Assembly: GCF_020510425.1 (NCBI RefSeq) | Contig: NZ_JAHBAH010000001.1 | Location: 2,275,001 to 2,339,000 of the forward strand | Direction of reading: 5' to 3' | Length of the DNA stretch: 64,000 nt | DNA from: Quatrionicoccus australiensis | Lineage (GTDB): Bacteria > Pseudomonadota > Gammaproteobacteria > Burkholderiales > Rhodocyclaceae | In this document: piece after piece, positions 41,327 through 45,302 of the stretch | Layout: the number at the start of each line of letters is the position of its first letter | Numbering within the stretch: the stretch's first letter is position 1 | Notes under the pieces: model-generated | The model's database searches: none | Told to the model about the DNA's origin: nothing | What the model saw: the letters and a program-made list of their open reading frames with translations, nothing else | Translations under genes and position numbers: made by a program

Positions 41327-42205
41327 TCAGCCGGCTCGTTTGGCCGCGGCGCAGATGGCGTCAGCGAATCGCGCGCTGAGTGCGACCGGAAAGTCGTGCC
41401 CCATGCCGGCGATGATACGCAGTTCGGCGCCGGGTATGCCGGCTGCCACGTCTTCGCCGCAGGCCGCCGGAATCAGCTGGTCGGCAGCGCCGTGCAGGAC
41501 GACGCAGGGCACCTTGATGCTTTGCAGCAGCGAGCGGCGGTCGCCGCTGGCGATGATCGCGGCGAGCTGGCGGCCGACGCCGCGCGGGTCGAAGTTGCGG
41601 TCGAATTCATTTTCGAACATTTTTTGCAGTTGACCGCGTGGCGTCGGAAAGTCCGGGCTTTCCAGCGTCGCGTAGCGGGCAATGCTGTCGGCAACGATGC
41701 TGTCGCGGTCGCGCACCCTGGGCAGCGGGGCGAACAGCGCCGCGGCAGCGGCCGGCGTCGGGGGCGGCAGGGCCGGGTTGCCGCTGCTCGACATGATGCT
41801 GGTCAGCGACAGCACGCGTTGCGGGTAACGCGCCGCGGCGATCTGCGCGATGGCGCCGCCCATCGACGCACCGACCAGATGCGCCCGCTCGATGGCGAGT
41901 GCGTCGAGCAGGCCGATGCAGTCGGCTGCCATGTCATCGAGCGTGTACGGCACGGCAACCGGCTCGCCGCGCTGCAGGGCGCGCAGGTCGGGTACCGGCT
42001 GCTCGCTGAAATGCGTCGATAGTCCGCAGTCGCGGTTGTCGAAGCGGATGACGCGGTAGCCGCGATCGACCAGCAATTCGCACAGCGCGCCATGCCAGCG
42101 CGTCATCTGGCCGCCCAGACCCATGACGAGCAGCACGGCGGGGGCGGTCGACGGTCCGAAACTCTCGAATTCCAGCGTGATGCCGTTGGCCGTGAGCTGG
42201 CTCAT
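41327..42205 (-). CDS. Alpha/beta hydrolase
   Basis: A 292-residue alpha/beta-hydrolase-fold protein. It has an oxyanion region MGLGGQ, the nucleophile elbow GASMGG with Ser114, an acid in HGAADQLIP and the catalytic His in GMGHDFP. It resembles esterases and haloperoxidase-like hydrolases; the substrate is unknown. The start overlaps the stop of the ClpX-like gene by four bases, so it is the last gene of the min operon transcript. It converges with the chemoreceptor gene with only two bases between stops. Confidence 0.88.
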   Translation of the reverse strand: MSQLTANGITLEFESFGPSTAPAVLLVMGLGGQMTRWHGALCELLVDRGYRVIRFDNRDCGLSTHFSEQPVPDLRALQRGEPVAVPYTLDDMAADCIGLLDALAIERAHLVGASMGGAIAQIAAARYPQRVLSLTSIMSSSGNPALPPPTPAAAAALFAPLPRVRDRDSIVADSIARYATLESPDFPTPRGQLQKMFENEFDRNFDPRGVGRQLAAIIASGDRRSLLQSIKVPCVVLHGAADQLIPAACGEDVAAGIPGAELRIIAGMGHDFPVALSARFADAICAAAKRAG

Positions 42206-43200
42206 GCGCTGGCGATCAGCGGCGGCTCGAACAGCGAGCGGATGCTGACGCTGCGGATCGCCGGGTTGTCCGGGATCGCATACAGAATGTCGGCCATCAT
42301 TTCCTCGAAGATGCCGCGCAGGCTGCGCGCCCCGGCCTTGTATTCGATCGCCAGTTCGGCGATCTGCTCGAAGACGAGCGGCGCGATTTCCAGCGAGACG
42401 CCGTCGGCCTGCAGCATGGCGGTGAACTGCTTGGCGATGGCGTTTTTCGGTTCGGTCATGATGCGCACCAGCATTTCCTGCGACAGGTCCTGCAGACGGG
42501 TGACGATCGGCAGACGGCCGGCGAATTCCGGGATCAGGCCGAACTCGAGCAGGTCGGTCGGCTTGATGCGGGCATTCAGGCGCTCGAGGATGTTGCGGTC
42601 GTCGTCGCCCGAGGTCGAGATGAAGCCGAAGCTGTGCGTCTTGGTCAGGATCTTGTCGAGGCCGACGAAGGCGCCGCCGCAGATGAACAGGATGTGCGTG
42701 GTATCGATGTGACGGCCGTCGCGCAGGCGCACCGGTGCGCCTTCCATGATCTTGAGCAGGGCATGCTGGACGCTCTCGCCCGACGTGGCGCGCGCGTCGC
42801 CGCCGGCCGCCTTGAGCTTGTCGACCTCATCGACGAAGACAATGCCGCGCTGGGCGCGTTCGAGATCGTCACCGGCGCGGTCGAGCAGGCGGTGCAGGAT
42901 GGCTTCGATCTCGTCGCCGACGAACTGCGTCTGGGCGAGCGAGGTGGCATCGGCGGTGACGAAGGGCACGTCGAGGATGCGCGCCAGGGTTTCGCAGAGC
43001 AGGGTCTTGCCGGTGCCGGTCGGGCCGATCAGCAGGATGTTGCTTTTGCTCAGTTCGACGCTGTCGACCGTGTTGGCCGCCATGCGGCGAAAGTGGGCGT
43101 AGATGGCGACGGCCAGTGTCTTCTTGGCGGCGTCCTGGCCGACCACGTGCTCGGAGAGCCGCTGGAAGATTTCGCTGGGTTTGAGCAGGGTGGGCATCAC
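42202..43200 (-). CDS. ClpX-like AAA+ unfoldase lacking the zinc-binding domain
   Basis: A 332-residue protein colinear with the AAA+ core of ClpX. It has Walker A GPTGTGKT (59-66), Walker B VFVDE (121-125), sensor 1 ILFICGGAF, arginine finger in EFAGRLP (R229) and sensor 2 GARSLRG (290-296). Differences from ClpX: no N-terminal zinc-binding domain (translation starts right at PTLLKPSEI), pore loop QFVG (92-95) in place of GYVG, a shortened loop where RKH should be, and FGF (191-193) in place of the ClpP-binding IGF. It could still dock on ClpP. The start is GTG 43200 or ATG 43197; both lie inside a strong hairpin. Probably cotranscribed with minCDE. The substrate is unknown. Confidence 0.88.
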   Translation of the reverse strand: MMPTLLKPSEIFQRLSEHVVGQDAAKKTLAVAIYAHFRRMAANTVDSVELSKSNILLIGPTGTGKTLLCETLARILDVPFVTADATSLAQTQFVGDEIEAILHRLLDRAGDDLERAQRGIVFVDEVDKLKAAGGDARATSGESVQHALLKIMEGAPVRLRDGRHIDTTHILFICGGAFVGLDKILTKTHSFGFISTSGDDDRNILERLNARIKPTDLLEFGLIPEFAGRLPIVTRLQDLSQEMLVRIMTEPKNAIAKQFTAMLQADGVSLEIAPLVFEQIAELAIEYKAGARSLRGIFEEMMADILYAIPDNPAIRSVSIRSLFEPPLIASA

Positions 43201-43230
43201 AGCCTCCGGGGATTGCCGAAGGCTGTGATG
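43195..43230 (-). promoter_or_regulatory. Hairpin hiding the start of the ClpX-like gene
   Basis: On the minus strand, a 15-base arm (43230 to 43216) pairs with a second arm (43209 to 43195) through 14 Watson-Crick pairs and one G-U, with a six-base loop. The second arm contains the Shine-Dalgarno GGAGG and both possible start codons (GTG, ATG). The minE stop codon is 9 bases upstream of the first arm, so terminating ribosomes could help melt it. It may act as a translational gate or RNA thermometer. Confidence 0.8.
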
Positions 43231-43239
43231 CTAGTCGTG

Positions 43240-43497
43240 TCAGCCCTTTTCGGGAAGCACGATATTGACTTCGAGGACCTCGTAGCGGTCCTGCTTTTCC
43301 AGCGAGACGCGGATGTCGTCGGGATTGACCTTGACGTACTTGGAGATCACGGCGATCAGTTCGCGCTGCAGGTCGGGCAGGAAATTGGCGCTGCTGCCGC
43401 CGCCATCGCGTTCGTGCGCGATGATCAGTTGCAGGCGTTCCTTTGCCAGGTGGGCGGTTTTCGGCTGGTTGCCGAAGAGTTTCTGGAGCCAGGACAT
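43240..43497 (-). CDS. minE: Cell division topological specificity factor MinE
   Basis: An 85-residue MinE. The N-terminal MSWLQKLFG is the membrane-targeting/anti-MinCD helix, followed by [13 protein letters not shown] (MinD-binding region) and the C-terminal dimerisation domain ending in NIVLPEKG. It stimulates MinD ATPase and drives pole-to-pole oscillation so that the Z ring forms at midcell. It starts one base after the minD stop and is third in minC-minD-minE. Confidence 0.97.
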
Positions 43498-43498
43498 G

Positions 43499-44314
43499 TC
43501 ACTTGCCTCCGAACAGGCGCTTCAACAGGCCCGGCTTGACGTAATCGACGAAGCGCAGCGGCTTGTCTTCACCGAGGAAGCGGGTAATCACGTCGTGATA
43601 GGCCTCGGCCGCATCGGTTTCCTTCTGGTGGATGACCGGCGAGCCCTGGTTGGAGGCCTGCAGGACTTCTTCCGATTCCGGGATGACGCCGATGATGGGC
43701 ACCCGCAGGATTTCCTGGATGTCCTTGTACGACAGCATTTCGCCGGCTTCGACGCGGCTCGGGTTGTAGCGGGTGATCAGCAGGTGTTCCTTGACCGGCT
43801 CGCGGCCTTCGACGGCGCGCCGCGACTTGGCTTGCAGGATGCCGAGGATGCGGTCCGAGTCGCGCACCGAGGAGACTTCCGGATTGGTCACGACGAGTGC
43901 TTCGTCGGCGAAGGTCAGGGCCATCACGGCGCCCGATTCGATACCGGCCGGCGAGTCGCAGACGATGTAGTCGAAGCCCTGGTGTTCCAGTTCCTTGATG
44001 ACCTTCTCGACGCCTTCTTCGGAAAGAGCATCCTTGTCGCGCGTCTGCGAGGCGGGCAGCACGTAGAGGTTGTCACAGTGCTTGTCCTTGATCAGGGCCT
44101 GGGTCAGCGTCGCTTCGCCGTTGATGACATTGATCAGGTCATAGACGACGCGGCGTTCGCAACCCATGATCAGGTCGAGATTGCGCAGGCCGACGTCGAA
44201 GTCGATGACGGCGGTCTTGAAGCCGCGCATCGCGAGGCCGGTGGAGAAGCTGGCGCTGGTGGTGGTCTTGCCGACCCCGCCCTTGCCGGAAGTTACGACG
44301 ACGATTCTGGTCAC
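43499..44314 (-). CDS. minD: Septum site-determining ATPase MinD
   Basis: A 271-residue ParA-type ATPase. It has the deviant Walker A KGGVGKT (11-17) with the signature lysine, switch I/II regions with [12 protein letters not shown] and CDSPAGIE, and the C-terminal amphipathic membrane helix [12 protein letters not shown]. It recruits MinC to the membrane and is released by MinE. The start is a GTG at 44314, set by the family N-terminus [13 protein letters not shown]. It is 33 bases after the minC stop. Confidence 0.97.
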
Positions 44315-44347
44315 GGTGATTTCTCGCTGGATGATGTTGGAATGATT

Positions 44348-45139
44348 TTAACGCAGCGCCAGGGGCGCGATGTTGAGGCGGGCCTGGCCGGCTTCTTCGA
44401 GCAGGCTGACGGTGGCCGGCAGGCGCGCCATGTCGGCCGGCACGCCGGCCTCGAAAGTGCGATACAGGCCGGCGACCGACACCAGTTCGGCCTCCAGGCT
44501 GGTGGTGAAGATGCGCGCGTTCTTGTCGCCGCTGGCGCCGGCCAGGGCGCGGCCGCGCAACGGCGCATAGACGTGGATGTTGCCGTCGGCGATCACTTCG
44601 GCGCCGGCGCTGACCATGGCGGTGACGATCAGGTCGCAGCCCTTGGCGTAGAAGCGCTGGCCGGAGCGCAGCGGCTTGTCGAGGGTGATCGTGCGCGGCG
44701 CCGGTTCGGGCGCGGGCGCCGGGGCGGCAACGGCTTGCGGCTGGGCAACCGGTTCGGGAGCCGGCGCAGGCGCTGCTGCGGGTTCGGCGACAGGGGCCGT
44801 TTTGGCGCGCGGCGGTCGGCTCAGCGCACTGTCGGCGAGGGCGGGCAGGCCGGCATTGGCGGCTTCGGCCGCCAGCGTTTCGGGCAGGCCGTGGGTCGCC
44901 ACCGCATGCAGGCCGGAGCCGCGCAGCAATTCGCGGATGGCCTTCCAGTCGGCGCTCTCGGCCAGGTTCTCGGCGCTGCTGAAATCGAGGACGGCCAGTT
45001 CGTTCTCGAAGAAGTCCGGACTGTTGCCGGTCAGTTCGCCCAGCGCCGCGTGCAGGGCAGCGAGGTCGGTCGTCCGGAGAAGGGTCTGGATGATCTTGAG
45101 CGAGGTGCCCTTGAACTGGATCGGTGCGTCTTTTGCCAT
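44348..45139 (-). CDS. minC: Septum site-determining protein MinC
   Basis: A 263-residue FtsZ-assembly inhibitor. The N-terminal domain (about 1-105, starting [19 protein letters not shown]) acts on FtsZ; the C-terminal beta-helix (about 155-263), starting near [15 protein letters not shown], binds MinD and dimerises. They are joined by an unusually long linker (about 110-150) of Pro/Ala/Glu repeats, a low-complexity insert. ATG 45139 matches the family start; longer in-frame readings run into the intergenic region. First gene of the min operon. Confidence 0.94.
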
Positions 45140-45210
45140 GCCTGCTGCGTGTCTTGCGAAAGGGTGTGGATTATCCCACAGGCGGGCTGCGGCGAAATGA
45201 AATCCGCTGC

Positions 45211-45239
45211 TTTTCCGGCGTCGACCGGTGGCCGGAAAA
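45211..45239. repeat. Inverted repeat containing a 17-base dispersed repeat
   Basis: TTTTCCGGC and GCCGGAAAA flank an 11-base loop with a GTCGAC core, in the gap between minC and the divergent kinase. Its first 17 bases (TTTTCCGGCGTCGACCG, 45211-45227) recur exactly at 49993-50009. Confidence 0.55.
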
Positions 45240-45246
45240 ATGCCGC

Positions 45247-45269
45247 AAAAAGCCCTGTCGGCGGGCTTT
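45247..45269 (-). terminator. Terminator-like hairpin upstream of minC
   Basis: On the minus strand AAAGCCC, a seven-base loop, GGGC and TTTTT form a terminator-like structure. It points toward minC, 108 bases before the minC start, so it might be an attenuator or stop stray transcription. Confidence 0.45.
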
Positions 45270-45302
45270 ACATCGACTTCCGCTGAGCGGATAGTTGACT
45301 GA

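Follow-up and report, generated by a model that had tools for sequence, protein, structure and literature searches.

The ClpX-like gene behind minE in the window (the whole 64,000-nucleotide stretch of Quatrionicoccus australiensis DNA that was analysed) starts within a stable RNA hairpin that covers its ribosome binding site, and a conserved promoter-like motif overlaps the 5' arm of this hairpin. Computation on the related sequences found a stable start-codon hairpin at 28 of the 28 tandem minE-clpX-like junctions in the genus (dG about -18 to -31), with conserved and covarying arms, and confined the stem to the arrangement in tandem with minE. We consider it probable that this hairpin is a translational insulator, which would block the read-through mRNA of minCDE and spare the gene's own mRNA. 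The features on which the argument draws are as follows, in window coordinates:

41327..42205, minus strand: alpha/beta hydrolase gene, with a 4-base overlap with the ClpX-like gene and on the same putative transcript
42202..43197 (stop codon included), minus strand: gene for a 331-aa ClpX-like AAA+ ATPase that lacks the N-terminal region of ClpX
43194..43209, minus strand: 3' arm of the hairpin, CCGGAGGCTGTGATGC, containing GGAGG (43207-43203), GTG (43200-43198) and ATG (43197-43195)
43216..43231, minus strand: 5' arm of the hairpin, GCATCACAGCCTTCGG, in the same register in 21 distinct tandem junctions
43219..43223, minus strand: predicted transcription start region, in the 5' arm, placed by the usual -10 spacing (10-14 nt downstream of the first T of TAGCAT)
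43228..43233, minus strand: TAGCAT, putative -10 element from its conservation across loci, overlapping the foot of the 5' arm
43240..43497, minus strand: minE
43251..43256, minus strand: TTCCCG, putative -35 element from conservation and a synonymous codon pattern, in the 3' end of minE and 17 bp from TAGCAT
43499..44314, minus strand: minD

At the window locus, GCATCACAGCCTTCGG (43231-43216) pairs with CCGGAGGCTGTGATGC (43209-43194) in a 16-bp stem with one G-U pair around the six-nucleotide loop CAATCC. An initial annotation, made from the letters of the window, had described this hairpin with the same single G-U and six-base loop but with arms one base too short (15 rather than 16 bp). Its placement of the Shine-Dalgarno GGAGG, the GTG and the ATG in the downstream arm agrees with our map, where all three lie inside 43209-43194, and the nine bases it counted from the minE stop (43242-43240) to the first arm are right for the 15-bp stem and become 8 nt for the 16-bp stem. 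The start is indeed sequestered as it had proposed, the whole ribosome site lying in the 3' arm of a stable stem. The fold of 43150-43260 (111 nt) reached -43 kcal/mol; shuffled sequences averaged -28.9 (sd 3.27), and none of 200 was as stable. The core dG, computed from -37 to +8 of the ATG, was -31.1 kcal/mol in the window. A background set of 337 other gene starts, called with a home-made script in the fetched loci, had a mean core dG of -8.9 and a minimum of -23.8, with 15 of the 337 reaching -18 and none reaching -24. Folding predicts that the Shine-Dalgarno and start codon are paired in the long transcript, both in the window and at the tandem junctions. A DNA search of the window's own genome returned, beyond the locus itself, matches of 14-24 bases only (E 0.99 or worse), and Rfam had no match in 42100-45300 at E up to 1. 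No T run follows the stem at the window locus, which rules out an intrinsic terminator.

The protein is a ClpX-type AAA+ ATPase, 48% identical to the other ClpX match of the same genome (at G000:C1:479913). The label ClpX-like given in the initial annotation is borne out by the AAA+ core, residues 4-319 of which align to solved ClpX chains. Because residue 5, which four residues precede, aligns with residue 65 of ClpX chain 8e91_A (424 residues), about the first 60 residues of ClpX are missing, and with them the N-terminal region that we take to be the zinc-binding domain. Of the NCBIfam cut-offs, NF003745 was passed (380 against 359 bits) and TIGR00382 missed (346.1 against 370.75 bits). F-G-F is kept where ClpX has I-G-F, presumably the ClpP-docking loop, and Q-F-V-G stands at G-Y-V-G, which we assume to be the pore loop of ClpX. 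The stretch matching ClpX GGRKHPQQEF is shortened. Of the 76 genomes of the genus, 57 have the gene (E up to 1e-110), and in a family-wide sample of 395 genomes it was found in 128 (E up to 1e-120). Its neighbours vary by site and include glnE, a phytochrome-type protein, an AraC-type regulator, a phosphoglycerate mutase, a peroxide-stress YaaA homologue, DUF2863, and competence and UvrD-type proteins (10 proteins at 6 loci), with no obvious mobility gene among the neighbours checked. Within the one genus the gene occupies many genomic sites (e.g. loci L144, L152, L168, L180, L181, L186 and L189).

Sixty loci were compared, the window and 59 relatives, of which 44, the window among them, share at least 70% identity; the stem comparison covers these 44 and omits the 16 loci below 70% identity, most of which have no clear common start. 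We call tandem the 26 loci in which the gene stands behind minE on the same strand, either tightly (16 loci, gap 42-45 nt) or spaced (10 loci, 78-141 nt). In the other 18 places the gene is elsewhere or minE is at least 559 nt away. Two further tight junctions were reached via minE loci, in genomes G072 (gene cut by the contig end) and G073 (no protein match). Core dG ranged from -18.0 to -31.1 kcal/mol at the 26 tandem loci, 20 of which lie at -24 or below, and was -26.5 and -26.7 in G072 and G073. At 17 of the 18 other places it ranged from -2.1 to -15.0, the exception being L188 at -19.4, where minE is 1137 nt off with an opposite-strand gene called between. The difference between the 26 and the 18 gave a Mann-Whitney p of 3e-8, uncorrected for kinship. 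None of 200 shuffles per locus was as stable in 23 of the 26 tandem loci; L147 and L187 had one such shuffle each and L182 had 11, and in L182 the lowest-energy fold deviates from the common pairing. The gap from minE to the start varies from 42 to 141 nt across the tandem loci, and the hairpin stays fixed at the start codon.

The arms of the stem covary. Among 21 distinct tandem rows, two-sided changes were seen in 8 of 16 pairs and three pairs were invariant, with the innermost pair of the stem holding in the window only. Across these rows 85.0% of cells were paired, compared with 29.0-45.8% in slid registers; the covariation score was reached by 0 of 500 shuffles and the percentage paired by 1 of 500. 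Arm letters differ while their partners match (ACAGCC in the window, GGGACT in L166 and usually GGGGCA), and the loop and mid-arm positions are variable among tandem loci. The initial annotation had staked its hairpin on the arms being conserved in relatives, and since they are conserved with compensatory changes, its own sequence test was passed.

Tandem and other-place loci are interspersed in the trees. Among supported independent pairs in the protein tree (52 rows), the stem follows adjacency to minE in four, opposes it in none and shows no difference in one (sign test p 0.125); the DNA tree (44 rows) gave three with, none against and one without difference (sign test p 0.25). The association of stem and adjacency thus appears consistent on the trees, with pairs too few for significance and with gain and loss indistinguishable. 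A model of the stem region, R1, matched the gene start in 32 genomes when run over all 76, and its four matches elsewhere were weak (E 0.013-0.028). A repeat element or a regulon was ruled out by the single copy and by the position of all strong R1 matches at the ClpX-like gene start. In an outside set of 18 further loci with 1.5 kb flanks (16 from other genera of the family and two from the genus) and three remote ones, no minE and no matching stem covering the Shine-Dalgarno were recognised; the lowest nearest-start dG there was -21.6 (L247), start codons being uncertain in this set. Three of these loci from another genus of the family (L245, L246 and L247) have CTAGAGTAT before the ortholog starts, and a stem of the form CGGGGC...GCCCCG lies immediately ahead of the Shine-Dalgarno.

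The promoter-like motif, TTnnCn-N17-TAG[CG]AT, was defined after the loci had been seen. All 26 tandem loci have it, as do 10 of the 18 other places, and it is absent from all 337 background gene starts. In 37 of the 44 loci the distance from TAGCATC to the start codon is 33-39 nt, and no background start has TAGCATC within 80 nt. Although unpaired, the TA of TAGCAT shows no variation across the 21 aligned tandem rows; it is also invariant in 11 aligned other-place loci, which were picked for having TAGCATC. L167 carries the version TTTACC-N17-TAGGAT. The window motif matches the E. coli sigma-70 consensus at 7 of 12 positions, and a consensus promoter scan with a threshold of 9/12 found no promoter at this motif.

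At tight loci the upstream half of the motif, TTnnCn, falls in the last minE codons, and the Leu codon there is CTT in 18 of 18 genomes. The same codon is CTT in none of the 10 spaced tandem loci, which have a separate CTTTACC upstream of the start, and in 3 of 22 non-adjacent minE genes (L159, L188 and L215). These counts come from the 51 of 76 genomes in which minE was found, with the partial match in G091 left out, and part of the pattern could come from the end of minE being inherited together with the gene. The stretch around L177 yielded no minE, yet the final codons of minE persist there, and CTTCCCG and TAGCATC keep their usual distance from each other. This 3'-end fossil of minE lies about 60 nt before the ClpX-like start; in the sister locus L152 the putative -35 part is kept as CTTTCCG and the rest of the fossil is decaying. 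Several spaced loci (e.g. L151, L157, L165 and L183) contain a further short inverted repeat, GCCGG...CCGGC, in the interval from TTTACC to TAGCAT; it is possibly an operator or a pause site. The initial annotation had the gene locked to minE translation or to opening by heat or a protein. Its account of the sequestration stands, and it had overlooked the promoter-like motif over the 5' arm, by which the hairpin more likely excludes the gene from translation as part of the min operon than ties it in.

From these sequences we infer how the motif, acting as a promoter with its start point inside the stem, and the stem itself, acting as a ribosome block, would deal with read-through from min. Transcripts begun upstream in the min operon and running past minE would carry both arms. 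In these transcripts the stem would form immediately and conceal the Shine-Dalgarno and start codon, leaving the ClpX-like gene untranslated. The gene's own promoter, TTnnCn-N17-TAGCAT, would start transcription inside the 5' arm; an mRNA begun at the predicted point would thus be unable to form the stem and, without most of the 5' arm, would leave the ribosome site open for translation. Predicted opening costs of the start region follow the same division (medians over the 26 tandem loci). RNA from 60 nt upstream of TAGCAT needed 20.5 kcal/mol and RNA starting at TAGCAT needed 20.9 kcal/mol, and for starts at +6, +8, +10, +12 and +14 after the first base of TAGCAT the cost was 14.8, 10.8, 9.2, 6.0 and 5.8 kcal/mol, respectively. 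These costs predict silence for transcripts from outside and an open start for the gene's own, provided that transcription does not begin too early; a start point at +6 would still leave the gene's own mRNA with a median cost of 14.8 kcal/mol.

The tandem arrangement may expose the gene to read-through. A home-made terminator finder detected nothing between minE and the gene at 28 of 28 junctions (45-141 nt scanned), where the gene follows minE directly on the same strand, and found a terminator behind 10 of the 22 non-adjacent minE genes (150 nt scanned). In the 18 other places the nearest upstream gene, according to home-made gene calls, points away in 11 cases and in the same direction in five, and is uncalled in two. 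L168, L180 and L181 have a co-directional upstream gene at 96, 170 and 82 nt with weak stems (-10.5, -11.3 and -6.7, respectively), so read-through as such is not always accompanied by a hairpin. In L189 the gene lies 32 nt behind glnE, with AGGAG exposed and the motif absent. From these four loci the insulator seems to be linked to the min operon rather than to any upstream gene. The broader picture, in which a chromosomal gene that moves between sites carries, only behind minE, a hairpin grown around its own -10 that mutes outside transcripts and none of its own, is one to which we give even chances. If true, a strategy of the phage or transposon type would have been selected in a gene that is neither phage nor transposase, and the losses after relocation would serve as natural controls.

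The conserved promoter-like motif also bears on two readings that keep the gene within the min operon. A trans-acting switch, by which a small RNA or protein would open the stem in the long min transcript and make the gene an on-demand member of the operon, accounts for the strength of the stem, which with the entire ribosome site hidden would need help to open; the motif would make such opening unnecessary, however, and because the loop and mid-arms vary, no conserved binding sequence is apparent besides TAGCATC and the start region. We regard this switch as unlikely. Translational coupling, with ribosomes that end minE opening the stem so that the output of ClpX-like protein tracks that of MinE, would suit the 16 of 26 tandem loci that have only 42-45 nt between the minE stop and the start codon (in the window, the stop is 8 nt before the stem) and the failure to find a terminator between the two genes. 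In the other 10 loci, however, 78-141 nt separate the two genes with the hairpin still at the start codon, and a ribosome ending at minE would not be expected to span such long gaps, which leaves the initial proposal that minE translation opens the stem poorly supported. A strong conserved promoter-like motif would moreover be superfluous under coupling, and we find this explanation rather unlikely.

It is also quite improbable that the stem serves the min mRNA, by protecting the 3' end of minCDE mRNA or pausing polymerase, with the hiding of the start codon as a side effect. The stem is present behind minE and missing in most other places, and the tandem junctions have no detected intrinsic terminator, both as expected of such a role, but its register follows the start codon instead of the minE stop and it is not followed by a T run. 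An inverted repeat over a putative promoter is the classical layout of an operator, and a repressor might bind this one as DNA over the -10 region. An operator is nonetheless very improbable here, as the arm letters change with pairing kept (ACAGCC in the window, GGGACT in L166, GGGGCA in others) and the repeat decays in loci that retain the promoter motif. The initial annotation had further suggested that heat opens the stem. A sequestered ribosome site would suit an RNA thermometer, but folding at several temperatures predicts a closed stem from 10 to 80 C, with a mean unpaired probability from the Shine-Dalgarno to the ATG of 0.064 at 37 C and 0.096 at 80 C. The thermometer, which also has no Rfam match, is unsupported by these values; predicted closure to 80 C rules it out, and the chance that it applies is practically negligible. 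The insulator is thus the reading that we carry forward.

Downstream of minE in L204, L205, L206, L208, L217, L232 and L233, whose genomes do not have the ClpX-like gene behind minE, there is a conserved TTTGCTGAGATGCATCAAAC with the inverted repeat ATGCCGGCA...TGCCGGCAT. By its appearance this stretch is a promoter region that serves some other gene.

How an inserted gene keeps its own expression within an active operon is seldom visible in sequence. The present family offers many natural replicates, with the hairpin behind minE and mostly absent elsewhere, and with the motif retained in over half of the latter places. If the promoter start is confirmed, a T4-type block of read-through would be at work on a bacterial chromosome, and a start-codon hairpin with a promoter in its 5' arm would be a signature for which other genomes could be scanned. 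Operon-level RNA-seq would in that case wrongly count the ClpX-like gene as co-expressed with minCDE.

Several known systems hide a start site in comparable ways. In thermometers of the ROSE and fourU types the Shine-Dalgarno is likewise held in a stem, which melts in the physiological range, whereas the stem described here is predicted not to melt physiologically. Transcripts from outside IS10 and IS50 fold over the transposase start and inside ones do not; the genes concerned encode transposases and lie in the terminal repeats of an insertion sequence, and no such element was seen here. For T4 gene e, the review PMC3014915 describes long early transcripts in which a helix covers the start, and late transcripts that originate in the 5' strand, lack the helix and are translated. 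In soc and gene 49, as in gene e, transcripts from upstream promoters hide the Shine-Dalgarno and/or AUG (PMC3014915). The late promoters of these phage genes are read by a phage sigma factor, and their start points are mapped and an effect of about 100-fold has been measured. The start hidden in long transcripts and, as we propose, the promoter in the 5' strand are shared with these three genes; our case differs from gene e in being a bacterial chromosomal gene behind minE with a sigma-70-like motif, known from sequence alone. According to the review PMC2988022, the ribosome sites of I-TevI, I-TevII, I-TevIII, segB and Aeh1 mobE are also hidden in outside transcripts and free in those from their own promoters. 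Lodging in another transcription unit would be common to both, but those genes are phage homing endonucleases, and ours is an AAA+ unfoldase gene whose site varies among species and for which no mobility gene was identified. In the accessible portions of the open-licence literature, including PMC3014915, PMC2988022, PMC8450116, PMC4265352, PMC11774165 and PMC3196728, we met no account of the minE-ClpX-like junction, nor of any gene on a bacterial chromosome arranged in this way. By analogy, we propose that the ClpX-like junction may work like, and belong with, the T4 e and I-TevI type, its new aspect lying in the bacterial chromosome setting, the host operon and the loss of the hairpin in relocated copies.
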